Shown here one piece after another: positions 6,244 through 18,017 of a stretch of DNA of 34,461 nucleotides. The translations under genes were made by a program, and so were the position numbers. Each line of letters opens with the position of its first letter. Position 1 is the first letter of the stretch. The DNA comes from Phycicoccus avicenniae. Lineage in GTDB: Bacteria > Actinomycetota > Actinomycetes > Actinomycetales > Dermatophilaceae. The DNA lies in contig NZ_JAGSNF010000026.1 in assembly GCF_018139485.1 (NCBI RefSeq), positions 1 to 34,461 on the forward strand, written 5' to 3'. Under the pieces are notes generated by a model. It did no database searches and was not told where the DNA came from. It saw only the letters and a program-made list of their open reading frames with translations.

Positions 6244-8124
6244 GTGAGCCGGCGGACGTGGGCGATGGTCGCCGCGGCCGCCCTGGTCGTCGTCGCCGGG
6301 CTCGCCGGGTCGGTGTGGTGGCTGCGGTCCGAGGCGGAGCGGGACGCCGCCGCCGACGCCGCGCTCGGGGCCTACGTCGCCGGCTGGCAGGCACGCGACC
6401 TGTCGGGCGTGCCGTTCACCGAGGGCGGCGCCGCCGACGACTTCGCCGCCGCGTTCGACGGCCTCGGCGAGGTCGCGGTCACCGCGAGCGCCTCCCCGCT
6501 TCGGCGGGACGGCGGCGTCGCCACGGCCGAGCTCGGCGTCGAGTGGTCGCTGCCGGGCGAGGCGCGATGGGACTACGCGACGCCCGTCCGCCTCGTCGAG
6601 CAGGACGGCGCCTGGCTCGTCTCCGGCCCCGGCGACGGCTCGCCGTGGCACCCGGACCTCGCGGTCGGCGAGACCGTGTCCCTCGAACGGACCGCGGCCC
6701 AGCGAGGTGACCTCCTCGGCCGCGACGACGAGCCGCTCATGCCGCAGGGCACGGTGTACCAGGTGGCACTCGACCCCGTGCAGGCCGACCGCGCCGGCGC
6801 CCGGGCCCTCCAGGACGTCACGGGGGTCGACGGGATCGTCGAGGACCTCGACGAGCGAACCCGGACCGGCTCGCAGGCCCCGATCCCCGTCATCACCTAC
6901 CGCGAGCGCGACTACCAGGAGCGCGCCGAGCGTCTCGAGGCCATCGACGGGGTCATCGCCCCCACGGCGACGCAGCCGCTCGGGCCGACCCGCACCTTCG
7001 GCCAGCCGCTCCTCGGGACGGTCGGGGAGGTCACCGCCGAGATGGTCGAGGAGAGCGGGGGCCGGCTGTCCGGGGGCGACCGCGCGGGGCGCAGCGGCCT
7101 GCAGCGGCAGTACGACGAGACCCTCGCGGGGACCGCCGGGTCGTCCGTCGTGACGAGCGAGGACGAGACGCTCTTCACCGCCGACGCCGTCGCCGGTGCC
7201 GACGTCGTGACGACGCTCGACCCCGTCGTGCAGCGGGCGGCCGAGGCCGCGCTGGACGGCGCCGACCTCGACGTCCCGGGCGCGCTCGTCGCCGTCGACG
7301 TCCCGAGCGGGGAGGTCGTGGCGGTCGCGAACACCCCGACGAGCGGCTTCGACCGCGCCGTCACCGGGCGCTACCCACCGGGCTCGACGTTCAAGGTCGC
7401 GACGACGTACGCCTACCTCACCGAGGACATCACCACCCCCTCGACGCCGGTGCCCTGCCCCGAGGTGGCGACGGTCGACGGCCGTCGCTTCACGAACTAC
7501 GCCGGCGAGTCCATCGGCGGGGAGCCGGTCTTCGCGGAGGACTTCGCGGCCTCGTGCAACACCGCGTTCGTCTCGCTGTCCACCGAGCTCGCGCCCGACG
7601 ACCTCACGACGGCCGCGGGCGCCCTGGGCATCGGGGCGGGCTGGGCGGACGGCCTCGGCGTCGCCGGCGCCTTCGACGGCAGCGTGCCGGCCACCGAGGG
7701 CGGGACCGACAGCGCGGCAGCGGCGATCGGCCAGGGGCGGGTCGAGGTGTCACCGGTCGCCCTGGCCGTGATGTCCGCCAGCGTCGGGCGGGGCACGTGG
7801 GTGCCGCCGCGGATCGTCGTCGAGGACGGGGGCTGGCCGCGGCCGACCCCGCTCGACGGGCGGGCCGTCGGGCAGATCCGCTCGATGATGGCCGACGTCG
7901 TCGCGACCGGGACGGCGACGGTCATGCGGGGCACCCCCGGCGGGACCGTCCGGGGCAAGACGGGCACGGCGGAGTACGGCGACGACACGGCCGACCCGTA
8001 CGTGTGGTTCACCGGCTACCAGGGGGACCTGGCCTTCGCGGTGCTCGTCGAGGGAGGGCGCAGCGGCGGCTCGGTCTCGGCGCCGATCGCCAAGGAGTTC
8101 CTCACCGACCTCGCGACGCGCTGA
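6244..8124 (+). CDS. Penicillin-binding transpeptidase, membrane-anchored, MecA_N/PBP-dimer/transpeptidase layout
   Basis: This 626-residue D,D-transpeptidase cross-links peptidoglycan outside the membrane. It has a short basic N-terminus (SRRTW), one membrane anchor (about 7-28), an NTF2-like MecA_N-type domain (about 35-145), a dimerisation region (about 150-310), and a C-terminal transpeptidase domain. Active-site motifs are complete: STFK with nucleophile Ser381, SCN at 437-439, and KTG at 572-574. The layout resembles the mycobacterial penicillin-binding lipoprotein, but no lipobox cysteine is present, so this copy is held by a transmembrane helix. The GTG at 6244 is preferred because it places basic residues directly before the anchor. 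The ribosome site is weak, and a seven-codon ATG reading frame (6224-6247) overlaps this start. It is a stand-alone gene ending at a strong hairpin. Confidence 0.92.
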   Translation: MSRRTWAMVAAAALVVVAGLAGSVWWLRSEAERDAAADAALGAYVAGWQARDLSGVPFTEGGAADDFAAAFDGLGEVAVTASASPLRRDGGVATAELGVEWSLPGEARWDYATPVRLVEQDGAWLVSGPGDGSPWHPDLAVGETVSLERTAAQRGDLLGRDDEPLMPQGTVYQVALDPVQADRAGARALQDVTGVDGIVEDLDERTRTGSQAPIPVITYRERDYQERAERLEAIDGVIAPTATQPLGPTRTFGQPLLGTVGEVTAEMVEESGGRLSGGDRAGRSGLQRQYDETLAGTAGSSVVTSEDETLFTADAVAGADVVTTLDPVVQRAAEAALDGADLDVPGALVAVDVPSGEVVAVANTPTSGFDRAVTGRYPPGSTFKVATTYAYLTEDITTPSTPVPCPEVATVDGRRFTNYAGESIGGEPVFAEDFAASCNTAFVSLSTELAPDDLTTAAGALGIGAGWADGLGVAGAFDGSVPATEGGTDSAAAAIGQGRVEVSPVALAVMSASVGRGTWVPPRIVVEDGGWPRPTPLDGRAVGQIRSMMADVVATGTATVMRGTPGGTVRGKTGTAEYGDDTADPYVWFTGYQGDLAFAVLVEGGRSGGSVSAPIAKEFLTDLATR

Positions 8125-8706: not shown

Positions 8707-9828
8707 TCAGCCCCAGCAGACCCCGCGGGCGGCCTCGCTGTCGAGGCTCGTGACGTCCGCGACGGGGTCGTCGGTGACGAGCGCGACGCCGGTGTCGTGG
8801 AAGTCGAGCCCGTCCGAGGTCCGCGGCCGCTCGCCGCCGGAGACGACCTCGACGACCGCCCGCAGCCCGAGGTCGACCATCCGGACGGGGTACTGCTGCG
8901 CGGTCGCCGAGAGCCGGCCGTCCTCCACGGCGTCGACGGCCTCGCAGCCGCCGTCGACCGAGACGACGAGGACGTCGTCGAGGCCGACCTCGGTGAGGAC
9001 CTCCCGGGCCCCGAGGGCGGCCGGGTCGGCGGCGGCGTAGACGACCGTCGGGGTCGGGCCCTCCTGCTCGAGGCAGGCACGCATCGCGTCCGCGCCCCCC
9101 TCGGCGGTGCCGAGCGAGGGCCGGGAGCACACGATGCTGTAGGTCCCCTCGTCCTCGCCGTAGGTGCCGGAGCGTGCCTCGTCGCCCGTGCGCCGCGGGT
9201 CGCCCACGGGCACGGCCATCCCCGCGAGGAAACCGTCGTGCCGGGCGACGTCGACCGAGACGCTGTCGTCGCCGACGAGGTCGAGCATGGCGACGCGTGC
9301 GACGTCGCCCCCGAGCCGGGCGGCCACCCACTGCCCGAGCAGCGTCCCGGCCTGCCTGTTGTCCGTCGCGAAGGTGATGTCGGCGCCGCGCGTCGCCGAC
9401 GACGTGGGGTTGTCGAGCGCGACGACGTAGACCCCCGCCTCCCGGGCGGCGGTGATGGCGTCCTCGACCTGCCCGGAGACGGGCGTGATGAGGATGCCGT
9501 CGTCGCCCCGGAGCACCGCCTCCTCGACCGAGCGGACCTGGCCCTCGACGTCCGTCGGACCCTCCCCCGGGTCGACGGTGAGGGCGACGCCGAGCCGGCC
9601 CGCGCCGTCACGTGCCGCCTGCTCCATCGCACGGAAGAACGGGCTCGACCCGTCCTGGGTGACGAGCGTGACGGAGACCTCGTCGCTCCCCGGGTCGATG
9701 GTCCCGCCCCCGGGGCCGCCGCAGGCGGCGAGCACCAGGGCGACACCGGTGCCGACGGCGACCCCCACGGACCGATGCGCGGGCCGCCGACGGCCGGACG
9801 CGCGCTCGCGGACCCGTCGGACGTCCAT
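8707..9828 (-). CDS. Sugar ABC transporter substrate-binding lipoprotein (FrcB/RbsB-like, orphan)
   Basis: This 373-residue type I periplasmic-binding-fold lipoprotein has an Arg-rich N-terminus, a hydrophobic segment and LAAC with the lipidated Cys36. The mature part shows two sugar-binding lobes: [18 protein letters not shown] near the start, [19 protein letters not shown], and a C-terminal [13 protein letters not shown]...CWG block typical of fructose/ribose-type CUT2 binding proteins. The ATG at 9828 is supported by GAGGAG seven bases upstream. No permease or ATPase accompanies it; the divergent neighbour is a LacI regulator. It may feed a transporter encoded elsewhere or act as a sensor. 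Intergenic 8581-8706 holds only a weak 5-bp hairpin (8629-8644). Family is firm, ligand unknown. Confidence 0.88.
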
Positions 9829-9901
9829 CGTCAGCTCCTCGCGGCGCGGGACCGGGGCCTCCTCGCCCTCGGTGGACACCGGACGGGTGCCGTCGCTCGT
9901 T

Positions 9902-9914
9902 TGTAACCGTTCCC
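9902..9914. promoter_or_regulatory. Candidate LacI-family operator
   Basis: TGTAACCGTTCCC lies in the 124-bp divergent region between the binding-protein and LacI genes. Its core AAC-C-GTT is symmetric around one base, like many LacI/GalR-family operators. The outer half-site on the right is degenerate. Binding is inferred from position and shape. Confidence 0.4.
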
Positions 9915-9952
9915 GTGCGCGGGGGTCAAGCGAGGGGTGCACACTCGGGGAC

Positions 9953-10996
9953 ATGCCCGGCCCCTCCTCCCTGTCCTCCACCGGCGACCGGGCGACGATG
10001 CGGGACGTCGCGACGCTCGCGGGGGTGAGCCTGAAGACCGTCTCCCGGGTCGTCAACGACGAGCGGGGCGTCTCGCCCGAGGTCCGCCAGCGGGTCTCGG
10101 CGGCCGTCGTCACGCTCGGCTACCGGCCGAACCACGCGGCGAGCACCCTGCGTCGACGCGGGGCGCGCACCGGACTCGTCGGTGCACTGCTGCAGGACCT
10201 GTCCAACTCCTTCTCCGGGGCCCTGCTGCGAGCCATCGAGGACGTCGCGCGGGAGAACCGGACGGCCGTCCTCACCGCGAGCATCGACGAGGAGGTCGAC
10301 CGGGAGCGCGACCTCGTCCGCGACCTTCTCGGGCGTCAGGTCGACGGGCTCGTCCTCATGCCCACCGGCCGCGACCACGCCTACCTCGGCGAGGAGCTGC
10401 GCGCAGGCCCTCCCGTCGTGTTCGTCGACCGACCGCCGCGTGGGCTCGAGGCCGACGCGGTGACCGTCGACAACGTCCTCGGCGCGCGGCGCGGCACCGA
10501 GCACCTGCTCGCCCAGGGGCACCGCCGGGTCGCGGGGCTCTTCCACCTGCCGGGGGTGCTCACCGCGCAGGACCGGGTCACCGGGTTCACCGCGGCGCAC
10601 GCCGACCGCGGGATGCAGCCCGATCCCCGCCTCGTCGTCACCGGCGTGCCCTCCTCGGTCGAGGCCGCCCGCGTCGTCGGCGAGATGCTCGCGCTCGACG
10701 ACCCGCCGACGGCGATCTTCGCCGGGCGCAACAACCTCTCGACCGGGGCGATCCGGGCGCTGGCGGAGCGGGGGGTGCAGCACCGGGTCGCCCTCGTCGG
10801 CTTCGACGACTATCCCCTCGCCGACCTCGTCGACCCGCCGCTCACCGTCGTGAAACAGAACGTCCCCCGGATCGGACGAGCCGTCGGCGAGCTGCTCTTC
10901 GCCCGGGTCGCGGGGGACCCGTCGCCGCCGCGGCACCTCGTCGTCGAGCCCACCCTCGTCCCGCGGGGGTCCGGGGAGATCCCTCCGCCGGGCTGA
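9953..10996 (+). CDS. LacI-family transcriptional regulator
   Basis: This 347-residue regulator has an N-terminal LacI helix-turn-helix (about 15-62; MRDVATLAGVSLKTVSRVVN) with the hinge sequence RPNHAASTLR, then a type I periplasmic-binding-like sensor domain (RTGLVGALLQDLSNSFSGA through VALVGFDDYPLADLVDPPLT). Length is standard. The ATG at 9953 puts the HTH about 15 residues from the N-terminus, as usual, and a purine-rich GGGG lies close upstream. It is divergent from an FrcB-like sugar-binding lipoprotein and probably represses it, and perhaps itself, through the symmetric site at 9902-9914. The effector is likely a sugar or sugar phosphate; its identity is not visible. Confidence 0.93.
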   Translation: MPGPSSLSSTGDRATMRDVATLAGVSLKTVSRVVNDERGVSPEVRQRVSAAVVTLGYRPNHAASTLRRRGARTGLVGALLQDLSNSFSGALLRAIEDVARENRTAVLTASIDEEVDRERDLVRDLLGRQVDGLVLMPTGRDHAYLGEELRAGPPVVFVDRPPRGLEADAVTVDNVLGARRGTEHLLAQGHRRVAGLFHLPGVLTAQDRVTGFTAAHADRGMQPDPRLVVTGVPSSVEAARVVGEMLALDDPPTAIFAGRNNLSTGAIRALAERGVQHRVALVGFDDYPLADLVDPPLTVVKQNVPRIGRAVGELLFARVAGDPSPPRHLVVEPTLVPRGSGEIPPPG

Positions 10997-12230: not shown

Positions 12231-12666
12231 GCCCGTTCGGCTCCGGCCACCGGCCACGCCGGTCGGGTGCCCCTGCACACCCGCCGAGGCGCCCTCTGAC
12301 ACCGCCTCGTCCGACGTGGCCGGTGCCCCCGTTCCACGGGGGTTCCCGGAGGTCCGGTCCCGCCCGGAGCCCGGGACCGGCGCCCCGTGCGACCCGCCCG
12401 GTCCACTCCGCCCCTGCTCGGCGACGACCCGGCGGCCCGACGGGGCCCACACGGCGAAAGAGGGGCGACCGGCCGACCTGATACACCCCCGTCGCGGAAA
12501 TTCCACGGACCTGCGCCGGGGCCCGACGCGGGGCCGGGACGACGGTCGTGCGCGCGGGGACGTATCACCGCTCCCGCTCGGGAGTCCTGGTCCCCGACAG
12601 CCACGATCACTACGCTGACCGGCACGCGGCGCCCGCCGCGGACGGCCCGGTCGCCGAGGAGCCAGG
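12231..12666. other. Hairpin-rich non-coding stretch upstream of the CHAT operon
   Basis: I see no convincing gene in this interval of roughly 0.43 kb; open frames here lack start signals and family features. It contains a 7-bp perfect hairpin (12326-12332 with 12336-12342) and a -10-like TACGCT (12611-12616) that would give the operon a leader of about 44 nt. No good -35 element is visible. It probably holds the operon promoter and its regulatory sites, and possibly an unannotated small RNA. Confidence 0.5.
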
Positions 12667-14301
12667 ATGGACGGACAGACCGCCGGGAGCCCACCGGACG
12701 GACCGCGGGACGGTCGCCCGGACCGCGGCGGACCGGTCCCCCCGGGGCCGAACCCGCCCGTCTTCGGGGTGCCCGCGACGGCGATGCGCCGGTTCGGGGC
12801 GACCGTCCTCGACCCCTCGACCGCCGAGCGCTCCGGTGAGGACCGCCCGCGCCCACGTCCCGTGGCCTACGTCCCCGACCGCCTGTTCGTCCCCGGCCTG
12901 CCCGGCGGCTCGTTCGAGGACTCCCGCTCGCTCCTGGAGCGCATCGGTCGCGAGATGGGCTTCTCGGTGCGGGTCGTCGACGGCGGCTTCGGCGCGGTCG
13001 CCGAGCAGCTCGAGGTCTTCGACCGCCTCGACGCCGTCGCGCACACGCCCGTCGACCTCGTCCCCGACACCACGGCCGCACGGCCCGCGATCGACGCCTG
13101 GACGGTCATCGCCCGAGCCCGGGCCGAGGCCGGCGAGGACGCCGTCCGGGGCTGGAGCCTCAACCACGTCCTCATGTCCGCCGGCGGCTACTGGGGTGGC
13201 GTCGGTGGGTACTGGGGCGGCGTCGGCGGCTACTGGGGTGGCGTCGGTGGGTACTGGGGCGGCGTCGGCGGCTACTGGGGTGGCGTCGGCGGCTACTGGG
13301 GCGGCGTGAACGCCCCGGGCACCGCGGTCGGTCGCGGCCCGCTCGTCCTCGCCCTCGACGCCCCGGCCCCCACGGCGACGCACCACCCCTGCGTCGCCGT
13401 CCTCGACACCGGGCTCGGGGCGCACCCGTGGTTCGACGGCTCGCCGCTCGTCACGCCCGACCCGACCGTCGCCGGGCAGCCCGTCGGCCTCGAATTCCCC
13501 CCGGACGAGGACCCCGAGAACACCGGGGTGACGATCGACCGCCTCAACGGGATGCTCGACCCGATGGCCGGCCACGGCACCTTCGTCAGCGGCGTCGTGC
13601 GCCAGCACTCGCCCGACGCCCACCTCGTCGCCGTCCCCGTCATGTACGGCGACGGCGCCGCGGACGAGCGCGACGTCCTCGAGGCGCTCAAGCGGCTCGC
13701 CGCGTGGCACCTCGCCGAGCGCGGGGCGAAGCGGCGCGGCGTCGAGGTCGTCAACCTCTCCCTCGGCTACTACCACGAGGACGTCGACCCCGACGTCACG
13801 TCGGCGGCGGTGCTCTCCCTCCTCCACGCCCTCGCCGCGGACGGGGTCGCCGTCGTCGCCGCCGCCGGCAACGGGGCGACGACCGAGGAGTTCTGGCCGG
13901 CCGCGCTCTCGCGGCACACGGCCGACGGCGCCGTCCCGGTGACGAGCGTCGGGGCCCTGGACCACTGCGGCACCGACGTCGCGACCTTCTCCAACACCGG
14001 ACCGTGGGTCACGGACTACCGGCGCGGGATGGCGGTGGTGAGCACGATGCCGACGACCCTCGACGGCTCGGTCAACGCCGCCGTCCACTCCCGGCCGCCG
14101 CACGACCCGGCCCGCGACAGCGGCGACCCGGAGCGGTACGCGTGCGGGTTCGGCGTGTGGAGCGGGACGTCGTTCGCTGCCCCCGCCGCCGCCGGTCTGG
14201 TCGCCGCCGCCCTCGCCGACGTCGACCTGCCCCACGAGGGACCGGAGCGGGCGAAGGTCGTCGCCGAGGTCGTGGCGAAGGCCCTGGGCGGGAGGCCGTG
14301 A
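12667..14301 (+). CDS. S8 (subtilisin-like) serine peptidase with GGYWGGV repeats, first gene of the CHAT operon
   Basis: This 544-residue subtilase has an intact triad: Asp247 in VAVLDTGLG, His303 in GHGTFVSGVV and Ser502 in SGTSFAAP; AAAGNGATT supplies the oxyanion Asn. The N-terminus (MDGQTAGSPPD) has no signal peptide or membrane segment, so the enzyme is probably cytoplasmic, unusual for the family. Residues about 65-172 form a folded pre-domain (VAYVPDRLFVPGLPGG onward), perhaps an inhibitory propeptide. Six GGYWGGV repeats (173-214) link it to the catalytic domain. GAGGAG five bases before the ATG supports the start. The stop overlaps the next start by one base. With the sigma factor and CHAT protease it looks like part of a regulated signalling or stress module. 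The catalytic assignment is firm; the role is inferred. Confidence 0.9.
   Translation: MDGQTAGSPPDGPRDGRPDRGGPVPPGPNPPVFGVPATAMRRFGATVLDPSTAERSGEDRPRPRPVAYVPDRLFVPGLPGGSFEDSRSLLERIGREMGFSVRVVDGGFGAVAEQLEVFDRLDAVAHTPVDLVPDTTAARPAIDAWTVIARARAEAGEDAVRGWSLNHVLMSAGGYWGGVGGYWGGVGGYWGGVGGYWGGVGGYWGGVGGYWGGVNAPGTAVGRGPLVLALDAPAPTATHHPCVAVLDTGLGAHPWFDGSPLVTPDPTVAGQPVGLEFPPDEDPENTGVTIDRLNGMLDPMAGHGTFVSGVVRQHSPDAHLVAVPVMYGDGAADERDVLEALKRLAAWHLAERGAKRRGVEVVNLSLGYYHEDVDPDVTSAAVLSLLHALAADGVAVVAAAGNGATTEEFWPAALSRHTADGAVPVTSVGALDHCGTDVATFSNTGPWVTDYRRGMAVVSTMPTTLDGSVNAAVHSRPPHDPARDSGDPERYACGFGVWSGTSFAAPAAAGLVAAALADVDLPHEGPERAKVVAEVVAKALGGRP
13183..13308 (+). repeat. Six 21-bp tandem repeats encoding GGYWGGV inside the subtilase
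   Basis: Six units run without gaps. Silent third-base differences alternate: units 1, 3 and 5 are identical, units 2 and 4 are identical, and unit 6 differs slightly. The array therefore grew by copying a 42-bp pair. Length changes by whole units would keep the frame. Confidence 0.95.
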
Positions 14302-14900
14302 TGCAGACCGACCCACAGACCCCGAACCTCGCGACCCGGGCCGCCACCGCGTTCCGCGCCTACCGCGACGGGGACCCGTCCGGGATGTCCCGCCTCGTCG
14401 ACGAGGTCTCGCCGCTGCTGTGGTCCGTCGTCCGCCAGCAGGGCGTCTCCCGCACGACCGCCGAGGACGTCGTCCAGACCACCTGGCTCAAGCTCGTCGA
14501 GCACTCCTCCTCGATCGCGGACCCGCAGTCCGTGCTCAAGTGGCTCATCACGACGGCCAAGCGGGACGCGTGGACGTCCGCGCACCGCTCCCGCCGCGAG
14601 GAGCCGGGCGCCGCCGAGGACGTCCGGGACCGCGAGCCGGACGCCACGAGCCCCTCGCCCGAGGGGGCGGTGCTCGCGGCGGACGAGGGGTCGCTCCTGT
14701 GGACCCACTTCCAGGAGCTGCCGGAGCGCTGCCGCACCCTGCTGCGCACCATCGCCTTCGCCGACCGTCCGGACTACGCGCACGTCGCCGAGGCCCTCGG
14801 CATGCCCGTGGGGTCGATCGGCCCGACCCGGGGGCGCTGCCTCGCCAAGCTCCGCACCGCACTGACGACCGATCCACGCTGGGGGGACACGACCCGATGA
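14301..14900 (+). CDS. RNA polymerase sigma factor, sigma-70/ECF-like
   Basis: This 199-residue sigma factor has region 2 (about 18-98; AEDVVQTTWLKLVE and WLITTAKRDAWTSAHR for core binding and -10 recognition), a charged linker rich in Glu, Asp, Pro and Arg (about 98-128), and region 4 (about 135-190; LPERCRTLLRTI, YAHVAEALGMPVGSIGPTRGRCLAKLR) for -35 recognition. No region 1 or 3 is seen. The ATG at 14301 overlaps the subtilase TGA by one base and has GGGAGG upstream; its own stop overlaps the next gene as ATGA. It sits between a subtilase and a TPR-CHAT protease, so its activity is plausibly released or limited by proteolysis. Fold is firm; target promoters are unknown. Confidence 0.93.
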   Translation: MQTDPQTPNLATRAATAFRAYRDGDPSGMSRLVDEVSPLLWSVVRQQGVSRTTAEDVVQTTWLKLVEHSSSIADPQSVLKWLITTAKRDAWTSAHRSRREEPGAAEDVRDREPDATSPSPEGAVLAADEGSLLWTHFQELPERCRTLLRTIAFADRPDYAHVAEALGMPVGSIGPTRGRCLAKLRTALTTDPRWGDTTR

Positions 14901-15397
14901 CACCGACACCCGAGTACGAGTCGCGACTGGCCGCAGAGCCCCTCGACGACCTCGACGCCGCCGTCCTCGACGAGGTCCGCGACCTGCACGCCCATCTCGA
15001 CCCGATGCCCGGCGACCTGCTCGACCGGATCAAGTTCGCGATGAGCGTGGCCTCCCTCGAGGCGCAGGTCGCGCAGATCGTCTCCGAGCAGACCCTCGCC
15101 TCGGTCCGCGGCACCGACTACGACCGTGCCGACACCGTCACCTTCGCCCGCGACGGCCTGAGCGTCATGGTGACGATCGAGCCCGACACCGCGACCCGCG
15201 TCGACGTCGTCGGCTGGGCGAGCGAGGGCGACATCGAGGTCGAGCTGCGGGAGCGGGGTCGGACCCGGACGACGACGACGGACGACGACGGCCGCTTCAC
15301 GATCGCCGGCGTCGAACGGGGCCTCGTCGGCTTCGTCTTCCGTCGCCGCGGCCAGCCGGACGCCCCGCCGATCATCACCCCGGCGATCGAGCTGTAG
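14897..15397 (+). CDS. Small soluble partner protein with carboxypeptidase-regulatory-like C-terminus (possible anti-sigma)
   Basis: This 166-residue protein is not recognised with certainty. Residues about 15-70 look helical (LDEVRDLHAHLDPMPGDLLD, RIKFAMSVASLEAQVAQIVSE). Residues about 85-160 look like a small beta sandwich (VSVMVTIE-type strand, DVVGWASEGDIEVELRERG, DDDGRFTIAGVERGLVGFVF), resembling carboxypeptidase-regulatory/Ig-like folds. There is no membrane segment, no signal peptide and no zinc-binding HxxxCxxC motif. Its ATG overlaps the sigma stop as ATGA, the coupling usual for sigma/anti-sigma pairs. It could hold the sigma factor inactive and be the target of one of the operon's proteases. 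That role is inference; the reading frame is well supported. Confidence 0.8.
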   Translation: MTPTPEYESRLAAEPLDDLDAAVLDEVRDLHAHLDPMPGDLLDRIKFAMSVASLEAQVAQIVSEQTLASVRGTDYDRADTVTFARDGLSVMVTIEPDTATRVDVVGWASEGDIEVELRERGRTRTTTTDDDGRFTIAGVERGLVGFVFRRRGQPDAPPIITPAIEL

Positions 15398-15470
15398 AGG
15401 AGCGGCCATCGAGCAGGGCGTCCGCACCCGGGTCGAGGAGCTCCTCGCGGCGGCCCGGCGGGAGAACGAG

Positions 15471-18017
15471 GTGGGTGGCTACGACGCCGCGGCCGCCGCG
15501 CTCGACGCCGCCGTGGCGACGCTGGACGCCGTCCTCGAGGGTGCGGACGCGGACCACGAGGCGCGGTCGCTGCGGGCCCGGGTGCTCGTGACGCGCGCCT
15601 GGGCGGAGCTCGAGCTGCACGGCACCGCGGCCGCCCTCGACGTCCTCGCGACCGCACGGGCGGAGGCGGAGGAGCTCGGCGACGCCCTCGTCCTCGCGCT
15701 CACCTGGATCCAGGAGGGCCTCGTGCACGGGCGGGTCTGGGACTACCCGGCCTCCCTCGCCGCGCTGGACCGGGTCTCCGACGAGGAGGCGCTCGCCCCG
15801 GCGCAGCGCTGGGCCCTGCACCTCAACCGGGGCCAGGTGCTGCTCGGGCTCGGCCGGACCGACGAGGGCGTCGTCGCGACCCGGACGGCGCTCGACATCG
15901 CCGTGGACCACGGGCTCGTCGACCAGGAGTTCAAGGCCCGCCACAACCTCGCCCGGCTCGCGTGGGTCCTCGGCGACCTCCCGAGGGCGCTCGTCCTGCT
16001 CCGGGAGGTCGACGCGATGGACACGACGGTCTCGCGCGACCGCGCCCGGCTCGACTACGCCGAGGTCCTCACCGACGCCGGGCTCGTCGACGCCGCCCGC
16101 CGGGTCCTCGCCGACGCGCTCGTCGGGGCACGGGCCGACGGGCACCGGCTCGAGGAGGGGGAGATCAGCCTGCGCCTCGCGCGGTGCCACCTCATGCTCG
16201 GCGACCTCGACGCCGCCCGGTCCGACATCGACGACGCGGCCGAGGCCTACCGCTCCCGGCAGGCCGGTGGCCTCGTGCGGGACGCCGACCTGCTCCGTCT
16301 CACCGTCGACGTCGCCGCCGGCCGGGACCTCGCCGCCGCCGCCGAGGCGCTGGACCGGCTGCGGACGTCACACTCCGAGAACGCGCCCGCCCGTCGGGAC
16401 GCGGCCCGGCTCGAGGCCGAGGCGCGCGCCGTCCTCGGAGACCTCGACCGCGCCGAGGCCGTGCTCGACGGCGTGCCCGCCGTGGACGGGGAGCCGCTTT
16501 CGGCGCGCCTGCACGAGACGCTCGTCCGGGCCCGGGTCGACGACGGGCGACACCGCCCGGGAGCGGCCGCCGCCCGGCTCGCCCTCGGCAGCCGGCTGCT
16601 CGCCGGCCGGCAGTTCCAGACCTCGAGCCTCGAGGTGCGGGCGGCGCTGGCCCTGCACGCCCGCCGGCTCACCGCCTTCGACCTGGAGCGGGCCGTCCGG
16701 GGCGGCGACCCGTCGGACCTCCTCACGACCGTGGAGCGCTGGCGCGCGATCTCGCACCGGGTCGACCCGGTGACCGCCGCCGCGGACGCCGGCCTCACCG
16801 ACCTCACCCGCGAGCTGCGGCGGCTCCGACGGGTCGCCGAGGACGGCGGGCCCGACGCCGACGACGCGCCCGCCCGGACCGCCGCGCTGGAGGCGCGGAT
16901 CGCGGAACGGGAGTGGAGCCTGGAGGCCCGGCGCTCGGACGAGCCCGGCGCCGCACCCCTCGGGGAGGACGAGGCCCGCGACGTCGTCGCCGCGCGGGAC
17001 GTCACGGTGCTCGAGCTCGTCGAGGTCGGCGCCGAGGTCCTCGCCGTCGTCGTGACGGCGACCTCGGTCGCGACCCGCGGGGTGGGCCCCCTCGCCGACG
17101 TCCTGGCCCTCACGACCCGTCTGCGGCGGGACCTGCGCGCCCGGGCGGGTGTCGTACCGACCTCGCCGATGCGCGCGGTCCTCGACCGGGCGACGGCGTC
17201 GTCGCTGCGCGCCGTCGAGCAGGCCGTGGGGCCGTTGCCCGGGACGGGAAGGGTGGTCGTCGTCCCGTCGCGGTCGCTGTCCGCCGTGCCGTGGAACCTG
17301 CTCCCGGGGTGGCGCGGCCGCCCCGTGACCGTCTCCCCGAGCCTCACCCGGTGGGTGCGGGGCCCCGCCCGAGAGCTCACCAGGCCGGCGGACCCGGCTC
17401 CGGGGGTGCCCCCGCGGACGGCGCGGACGCGGGACGGGCGGGCGCGGAAGGCGCGGACGCTGACGGCGCTGCACGGACCGGGCCTGGCGCACACCCTCCC
17501 GGAGATCCGTGAGGTCCGTCGGGCGTGGGGGGCCGACGAGGCGACGGGCCCGGCGGGCCCGGCGGCGCCGGAGGACCCGGCGACGAGCGACGACGTCGTC
17601 GCCGCGCTCGCCTCGTCCCGCGTCGTCCACCTCGCGGCGCACGGGGTCCACGAACGGGACAACCCCCTCTTCTCGTCGGTGCGGATGGCGGACGGCCCGG
17701 TCTTCGCCCGCGAGTTCCCCCACCCGGTGACGGCGGAGCACGTCGCCCTCGCGGCCTGTGACGTCGGCCAGTTCTCGACCCGACCCGGGGACGAGCCCCT
17801 GGGTCTCGCGACGGCGTTGCTGGCGCTCGGGTCGACGAGCGTGCTCGCCGCGGTGGCACCCGTCGCCGACGACCGGGCGGCGGCCGGGATGGCGGACTAC
17901 CACCGGGCGCTCGCGGCCGGGGTCGACGCGGCCGAGGCGCTCGCCACGACGGTCGAGGCCCACCCGGAGACCGGAGCGTTCTGCCTCTACGGCTCGGACT
18001 GGTCCGCCGCGCGCTGA
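15471..18017 (+). CDS. TPR-CHAT protein (caspase-like protease), last gene of the operon
   Basis: This protein of at least 848 residues has an N-terminal all-helical array of tetratricopeptide-like repeats (about 1-400; for example LHLNRGQVLLGLGRTDEGVV and KARHNLARLAWVLGDLPRAL), a helical connector, and a C-terminal CHAT domain (about 540-848). The caspase-like dyad is complete: His724 in LAAHGVH and Cys763 in LAACDVGQ. CHAT proteases are cysteine peptidases switched on through their TPR arms. No signal peptide or membrane segment is visible, so it acts in the cytoplasm. GTG at 15471 has GGGAG six bases upstream. However, AGAGGAG (15396-15402) lies five bases before an in-frame ATC at 15408, and the 21 codons between encode a good first helix, so an ATC start is possible. 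No other in-frame ATG, GTG or TTG exists upstream. Confidence 0.9.
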   Translation: MGGYDAAAAALDAAVATLDAVLEGADADHEARSLRARVLVTRAWAELELHGTAAALDVLATARAEAEELGDALVLALTWIQEGLVHGRVWDYPASLAALDRVSDEEALAPAQRWALHLNRGQVLLGLGRTDEGVVATRTALDIAVDHGLVDQEFKARHNLARLAWVLGDLPRALVLLREVDAMDTTVSRDRARLDYAEVLTDAGLVDAARRVLADALVGARADGHRLEEGEISLRLARCHLMLGDLDAARSDIDDAAEAYRSRQAGGLVRDADLLRLTVDVAAGRDLAAAAEALDRLRTSHSENAPARRDAARLEAEARAVLGDLDRAEAVLDGVPAVDGEPLSARLHETLVRARVDDGRHRPGAAAARLALGSRLLAGRQFQTSSLEVRAALALHARRLTAFDLERAVRGGDPSDLLTTVERWRAISHRVDPVTAAADAGLTDLTRELRRLRRVAEDGGPDADDAPARTAALEARIAEREWSLEARRSDEPGAAPLGEDEARDVVAARDVTVLELVEVGAEVLAVVVTATSVATRGVGPLADVLALTTRLRRDLRARAGVVPTSPMRAVLDRATASSLRAVEQAVGPLPGTGRVVVVPSRSLSAVPWNLLPGWRGRPVTVSPSLTRWVRGPARELTRPADPAPGVPPRTARTRDGRARKARTLTALHGPGLAHTLPEIREVRRAWGADEATGPAGPAAPEDPATSDDVVAALASSRVVHLAAHGVHERDNPLFSSVRMADGPVFAREFPHPVTAEHVALAACDVGQFSTRPGDEPLGLATALLALGSTSVLAAVAPVADDRAAAGMADYHRALAAGVDAAEALATTVEAHPETGAFCLYGSDWSAAR

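Follow-up and report, generated by a model that had tools for sequence, protein, structure and literature searches.

Extracytoplasmic function (ECF) sigma factors encoded next to proteases have been described before, and the group closest to the system treated here is ECF54. A 2022 review lists this group with SFT86700.1 of Geodermatophilus amargosae as its model and gives a subtilase, a CHAT protein and a carboxypeptidase(-regulatory) protein as its conserved neighbours, and it is because of those neighbours that proteolytic control without an anti-sigma factor was proposed (PMC8999054). The part of that review on the group, a summary of the primary papers (Huang 2015; Casas-Pastor 2021), characterises ECF54 by gene context only and gives no mechanism (PMC8999054). 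Another described system is type III-E CASP, made of Csx29 (a protein with tetratricopeptide repeats, TPR, and a CHAT domain), Csx30 and CASP-sigma, for which cleavage of the small protein is proposed to relieve the inhibition of sigma (PMC10028731). The present text concerns a four-gene operon of Phycicoccus avicenniae, found on contig NZ_JAGSNF010000026.1 (34,461 nucleotides, called the window throughout), which encodes a subtilase (S8), an ECF sigma factor, a small protein called SM and a TPR-CHAT protease. We read it, with a probability of about 0.4, as an ECF54-type transcription switch gated by proteases and equipped with coded peptide arrays, in which the array of the subtilase would be docked and SM would be removed.

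The window belongs to a 3.54-Mb genome in 26 contigs, and its four genes of interest are the following:

12667..14301, + strand: subtilase (S8), 544 residues, putative pro-subtilase; Pfam PF00082, E 9.3e-19; AlphaFold2 mean pLDDT (predicted local distance difference test) 83.6; best Foldseek matches include unprocessed pro-subtilisins
14301..14900, + strand: ECF sigma factor, 199 residues, group ECF54 by gene context; TIGR02937, E 8.6e-17; conserved region-4 block
14897..15397, + strand: SM, 166 residues, sigma partner; AlphaFold2 mean pLDDT 89.4
15408..18017, + strand: TPR-CHAT protease, 869 residues counted from an ATC (848 from the GTG at 15471); PF12770, E 6.4e-25

As an earlier note on this DNA had described, the genes interlock: the TGA stop of the subtilase gene (14299-14301) shares a base with the sigma ATG (14301-14303), and the sigma TGA (14898-14900) overlaps the ATG of SM (14897-14899). 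The Pfam matches of the window proteins are Peptidase_S8, Sigma70_r2 (E 4.4e-8) and CHAT, and the sigma factor reaches 61.2 bits against the TIGR02937 (ECF) cutoff of 42.9; the TPR matches of the CHAT protein are weak and stay below the Pfam cutoff. The catalytic residues named in the same note proved intact. Those of the subtilase (Asp247, His303 and Ser502) are kept, together with the oxyanion Asn, in 27/27 aligned proteins, i.e., the window and 26 loci. Those of CHAT, His724 and Cys763 when counted from the GTG at 15471 (codons 17640-17642 and 17757-17759), are kept in all 26 readable proteins, the 27th being cut by a contig end.

How constant is this neighbourhood? Three sets of loci were compared, which overlap in part, so that some entries are the same contigs (e.g., L031/L059 and L221/L100): 28 loci fetched for SM; the best 80 of at least 564 confirmed sigma relatives, found by scanning named genomes with a sigma alignment; and 27 mostly more distant loci, of which 20 were picked by hand from the 89 of 394 genomes of the class that have SM, and 7 (L052-L058, also among the 28) were the weakest of the first sample. 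The last set was chosen by the presence of SM and is informative only for the counts of sigma, S8 and CHAT. SM occurs in 12/12 genomes of the genus, that of the window included, and in 26 of the 58 genomes of the whole sample. Sigma, S8 and CHAT accompany it in 26 of the 28 loci, L052 and L053 having sigma and SM only, and the gene set is present in all 11 other genus genomes searched, with CHAT cut by a contig end in L043. The best named sigma matches come from Phycicoccus and related genera. Among the best 80, the conserved co-occurrence anticipated in the earlier note is found in 71 loci with all four genes (SM in 80, S8 in 74, CHAT in 74), and 61 loci show the order S8-sigma-SM-CHAT and 8 the order sigma-SM-S8-CHAT, with 2 duplicated and 9 partial. 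Among the loci without the full set, L075, L098 and L103 end close to the gap, and in L111 SM is followed by a run of N. In the SM-chosen loci, sigma adjoins SM in 27/27 and both proteases lie near in 19/27, often on the opposite strand or in a different order; because the linkage persists through rearrangement, a functional tie is favoured over inherited order.

At the core of the operon are sigma and SM. SM directly follows sigma on its 3' side in 80/80 of the best sigma matches, in line with the coupling that the earlier note had observed, and by their gene sequences the two are an inseparable pair; such a constant position is as expected of a regulator of sigma. The AlphaFold2 model of SM has three N-terminal helices, a linker and a C-terminal beta sandwich. 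Its only Pfam match, to CarboxypepD_reg, is sub-cutoff (E 6.2e-5), and NCBIfam and PADLOC gave no match. SM may be pictured as an anti-sigma factor that restrains sigma, and its weak CarboxypepD_reg match would explain the "carboxypeptidase" among the neighbours of ECF54. With a subtilase and a CHAT protease beside an ECF sigma factor, the operon has the gene context of ECF54, an assignment that rests on this context, including the sub-cutoff match of SM, and not on the sequence model of the group.

A further element, on which the earlier note was silent, is a tandem peptide array inside the subtilase:

12775..13179, + strand: N-terminal domain of S8, residues about 37-171, propeptide-like by the strand/helix order of the AlphaFold2 model and by Foldseek alignments
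13183..13308, + strand: tandem array GGYWGGV x6, a perfect 6 x 7-residue repeat, S8 residues 173-214, between the N-domain and the catalytic domain

Foldseek aligned the S8 model to 3afg and 3whi over 475-516 columns, compared with roughly 280-330 for most mature subtilisins (aligned ranges were not displayed); alignments to unprocessed pro-subtilisins of this length are enough for both domains, so that the N-domain would be propeptide-like. Beside Peptidase_S8, no Pfam family matched the protein at E 0.1, and its best sequence match in the PDB is CylA (E 1.5e-15). In the model, the array comes right after the last strand of the N-domain with very low confidence (pLDDT below 50 at residues 176-220). 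The junction between N-domain and catalytic domain is where subtilisins are matured, and the array would sit at this place.

In relatives, this position is taken by other units, such as GYMGGV, GYTSGV, GYGSGV, GETHGV, GHGDGI, PYTTGH, PFTSGG, PYWDPV, NPFHST, PYLAGV, PYTDPH and more: in these sequences, the unit differs between species and is near-identical within an array. The comparison of adjacent copies took in 56 arrays, each with three or more perfect copies and each from one of at most 77 proteins, and it counted 561 synonymous and 78 nonsynonymous differences, 74% of the sites being nonsynonymous; the detection of arrays as perfect runs biases against nonsynonymous differences, and edge units at least 50% alike were restored before counting. 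The many synonymous differences mean that the copies are not merely recent duplicates. A perfect array is missing from 12 of the 76 S8 entries of the 80-locus set, some of which are cut by contig ends or hold degenerate repeats. Among 4822 other open frames, 35 had at least three perfect copies, a count to which shadow frames of the arrays contribute and from which no rate was derived.

The unit is also confined in its occurrence. In the window genome, all six matches to a DNA pattern made for the GYWGG core lie inside the array, and a search of the candidate regulon regions (see below) of 11 genomes with a known unit gave only Gly-run matches and one GGVGG match. Among related loci, the exact unit was seen outside S8 in one protein only, a trypsin-like protease of Knoellia sinensis encoded divergently from the S8 gene (L086, about 6513-8091), whose tail has GWGDGI x4, the S8 array unit of that genome; its gene lies behind a reverse copy of the promoter discussed below. 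The idea of the unit as a general shared tag was dropped: it is absent from the K. locipacati trypsin ortholog and from the tails of trypsins next to such operons in Knoellia/Janibacter (five) and Serinicoccus (one). Two loci, L077 and L079, hold two S8-CHAT pairs each, and the S8 proteins of a locus differ in their units: PFTSGG occurs in both loci, HPMYDG in one and HPLYDG in the other. Cellulomonas humilata (L126), where no S8 was detected, encodes a divergent trypsin-like protease with a long PFTE repeat tail and AFGAN spacers.

If the unit is a code, what reads it? Unit distances were compared with protein distances in 70-residue windows, controlling for the other proteins and with permutation over all windows. 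There were 50 loci, reduced for redundancy to 38 and 29, which together with identity and BLOSUM metrics makes four settings; L077 and L079, which have a pair of S8 genes, were omitted, as were three of 53 loci that had fewer than the four proteins. Two segments stood out:

15933..16142, + strand: TPR segment, residues 176-245 of the CHAT protein counted from the ATC, covarying with the S8 array unit; family-wise p 0.001-0.023
13612..13821, + strand: S8 residues 316-385, covarying with the array unit under the BLOSUM metric only; aligned to subtilisin BPN'

For the TPR segment, the family-wise p was 0.023 (identity) and 0.022 (BLOSUM) at n=38, and 0.001 (identity) and 0.003 (BLOSUM) at n=29. 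The S8 segment gave p 0.001 with BLOSUM at both sizes. Of 375 single S8 columns (BLOSUM, n=38), the best is M326, opposite the Leu of KVLGADGSGQY in subtilisin BPN', which we take to be Leu96, lining the S2/S4 pockets. Neither sigma nor the S8 N-domain has a window with significant covariation with the unit. To judge from these alignments, the array unit appears to evolve together with the TPR segment of CHAT and also, though this is less robust, with the substrate cleft of the subtilase.

Upstream of the operon lie two recurrent elements:

12562..12588, + strand: promoter-like GTATCA-N16-GTCCT, a one-base variant of the common GTATC-N17-CTCCT
12607..12618, + strand: TCACTACGCTGA, second recurrent element downstream of the promoter; TCCTG-N18-CACTA in 15/73 upstream regions

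TCACTACGCTGA may be a TANNNT -10 element. The exact GTATC-N17-CTCCT is found in 44 of 73 operon upstream regions (the window is among the 73 and not among the 44), and in the control, one single shuffle, the best pair reached 6/73. In the 12 genus genomes, GTATCA-N16-CTCCT has 51 matches and the reversed pattern 1; 16 of the 51 are at the operons themselves. Since the element precedes the operon and recurs at dispersed sites, autoregulation of sigma is probable and so, on this motif evidence, is a regulon under its control.

Off the forward operon promoters, 36 sites were compared, i.e., 35 dispersed ones and the reverse-facing operon site of G008, five other reverse-facing operon sites being outside this set. 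At 23 of them, the downstream frame is homologous to one at a site in another genome, and at 13 it is not; what was compared were open frames, shadow frames among them, and of the ten groups obtained, one (L189/L215) depends on a match of 24 residues. The window genome has two dispersed sites, and both have counterparts elsewhere (L218/L198 and L219/L205). Some gene calls behind the regulon sites are wrong frames. Twenty downstream proteins were compared with Pfam. The matches comprise vWA/integrin-beta-like domains (two, one just below the cutoff), patatin with DUF3376, PKD, T6SS_Hcp, DUF1508, DUF427, STAS, AMIN-like and a sub-cutoff CarboxypepD_reg, and 10 of the 20 had no match at E 0.01. 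The physiological output of the regulon is not obvious from this list. One candidate (L193:387-995), with the T6SS_Hcp domain, has by eye an apparent twin-arginine signal. A small protein recurs behind the sites of four genomes (L207, L214, L184, L199), in two of them with the motif ALNPQPLPP. Some loci (L059, L060, L062-L068 and others) have, upstream of the operon, a reversed promoter copy that points away from it; in the Phycicoccus-like loci no clear gene follows this copy, and the frames there look, by eye, antisense to a YtxH-like gene.

These data suggest a mechanism in which peptides of the array would lie in the cleft of the subtilase, either as self-substrates or as pseudo-substrates. 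The TPR arm of the CHAT protease would also dock them, so that the two proteases would be coupled. On a signal, one of the proteases would remove SM, which would otherwise restrain sigma, and the freed sigma would switch on its own operon and the regulon.

A number of observations weigh against this reading. Among the best 80 loci, S8 was undetected in 6 and CHAT in 6, and L109 and L131 have neither protease despite enough room. At least three perfect copies of a unit are present in only 5 of the 19 S8-bearing loci of the distant set, from which it follows that the core switch can do without the array. The fold search with SM returned weak matches only, 0 at E <= 0.001, and none of the 50 matches shown is named an anti-sigma factor. 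As for the covariation, the S8 segment 316-385 is not significant with the identity metric (r 0.17 at n=38; r 0.21, p 0.12 at n=29), and residues 106-166 of SM are significant in one of the four settings (p 0.02). Partial Mantel tests can be liberal, and with n of 29-38 the covariation is for this reason a strong lead, not proof. The regulon is a set of motif matches, and with a slightly looser promoter pattern the window genome has 3 sites and the control 1, which proves nothing alone.

Could the array be a mere flexible linker, or a row of redundant maturation sites, whose sequence drifts between species and covaries with CHAT through shared ancestry? It is disordered, with low confidence, in the AlphaFold2 model, it is often Gly-rich, and it is located after the N-domain, where subtilisins are matured. 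We nevertheless consider this doubtful, since the nonsynonymous share between copies (78/639, against 74% of the sites) is far below neutral, the selection of perfect runs being noted as a bias, and since the N-domain and sigma, which have the same ancestry, lack significant covariation. The array may also serve as a relay, in which the subtilase cuts its own array and the released hexa- or heptapeptide copies bind and activate TPR-CHAT, making it an intracellular cousin of the TPR peptide receptors. Near-identical copies despite many synonymous differences would suit such a relay, as would the covariation of the unit with the TPR segment and, under one metric, with the subtilase cleft, and the duplicated S8-CHAT pairs of L077 and L079, where the two S8 proteins differ in their units and each unit has an identical or nearly identical counterpart in the other species. 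The same data fit docking, or a substrate array that is never released, and the likeness to RRNPPA-type receptors consists in the covariation with the TPR segment only; we regard the relay as rather unlikely. A bolder version, which strikes us as improbable to a like degree, sees an intracellular peptide code: the array, maintained by selection, would be both the substrate of its own subtilase and the matched TPR ligand of CHAT, a private password of each lineage or duplicated pair that licenses the release of sigma. In this version, a further protease of the neighbourhood can bear the password as well, as with the trypsin tail of K. sinensis and, with a different array, the trypsin of C. humilata.

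The role of SM can be read differently, too. SM may be no anti-sigma factor at all but an adaptor or co-activator, with sigma held low by its own proteolysis, as has been proposed for ECF54. This is an alternative that we likewise consider doubtful. Against it, SM is the most faithfully retained partner of sigma (80/80) and is kept where no protease was found near (L109, L131, L052, L053, L227, L228 and L231-L234, some of these cut by contig ends). A module of phage defence or cell death like type III-E CASP (Csx29-Csx30-CASP-sigma) would have the same types of parts, i.e., a TPR-CHAT protease, a small protein and an ECF sigma factor (PMC10028731), and the earlier note had named phage defence as a candidate output. 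Positive evidence for it did not emerge, no search for CRISPR or cas genes having been made: for the four window proteins PADLOC returned only subtilase/IetS matches, all to the S8 protein, and a defence island was rejected on this ground; the Csx29 model matches with E 0.03, and the gene set is present in every other genus genome searched, unlike a patchy defence island. We hold this explanation to be very improbable.

A smaller matter is the start of the TPR-CHAT gene:

15396..15410, + strand: Shine-Dalgarno-like AGAGGAG and candidate ATC start codon of TPR-CHAT, by open frame and conserved N-terminus

The open frame and the conserved N-terminus reach upstream of the GTG at 15471, which the earlier note had used, to about 15408, a correction to that note. 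Translation may start at this rare ATC behind the Shine-Dalgarno match or, in the window, at the GTG of 15471. In a comparison of 64 loci, in which the conserved start of the window was placed by hand at the ATC, 35 have a canonical codon, and 29 have no ATG, GTG or TTG up to and including codon +5 of the conserved N-terminus. These 29 comprise 10 with ATC (the window, L060, L063, L065, L066, L067, L107, L108, L130 and L135), 7 with ACG, 3 with CTG and a Shine-Dalgarno match, and 9 with neither. Two details of gene content may be added. In Ornithinimicrobium pekingense (L105), no S8 was detected, and a 60-residue Gly-rich frame (9801-9983) overlaps the start of the sigma gene. In L126 and L075, the operon adjoins frames that we take to resemble ribosomal proteins of the L1/L10 type.

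How, then, does the operon compare with the systems already described? In the caspase systems of the EACC2 kind, a gene for a caspase-superfamily protease is next to an ECF sigma gene, a TPR protein is present as well, and a transcriptional output has been proposed; their core domains are different, and the portion of the paper on them describes no subtilase array (Kaur et al. 2021, PMC8195603). The pro-subtilisins (Tk-SP, subtilisin E), CylA and the intracellular subtilisins resemble S8 in the catalytic triad and, putatively, in an N-domain that would be propeptide-like. Unlike them, S8 has a species-specific tandem peptide array at the junction and is encoded beside sigma and CHAT. With type III-E CASP, which the earlier note had invoked as an analogue, the operon shares a TPR-CHAT protease, a small protein and an ECF sigma factor (PMC10028731); it differs in its additional putative pro-subtilase and in SM, which matches nothing in NCBIfam or PADLOC. 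The likeness of its CHAT protein to Csx29 turned out to be negligible (NF041237, 13.2 bits against a cutoff of 300), so that the comparison would be one of part types, and membership fails on the Csx29 sequence.

ECF54 is the nearest relative, with the same ECF sigma factor among subtilase, CHAT and carboxypeptidase(-regulatory) neighbours and the same proposal of proteolytic control (PMC8999054). The protease-controlled switch suggested in the earlier note is a reasonable reading, supported in part by the conservation of the four genes, the promoter element and the constant SM, and it loses its novelty, since proteolytic control had been proposed in outline for ECF54 (PMC8999054). What the operon adds is the array, the promoter with its candidate regulon, and the sigma-SM core; the account of ECF54 given in that part of the review has no arrays, no promoter or regulon, and no SM as the constant partner of sigma (PMC8999054). 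Recognition between proteases through a matched array code was not found described in the open-licence full-text literature, a scope outside which the primary ECF54 papers lie, and if the array is such a code, it would be a form of protease-protease recognition. The comparison leads to two questions about contacts: (i) Which protease reads the array? (ii) What frees sigma? With a promoter element, a candidate regulon, a constant sigma-SM pair and coded arrays, the operon turns ECF54 into a system whose contacts can be named and tested.
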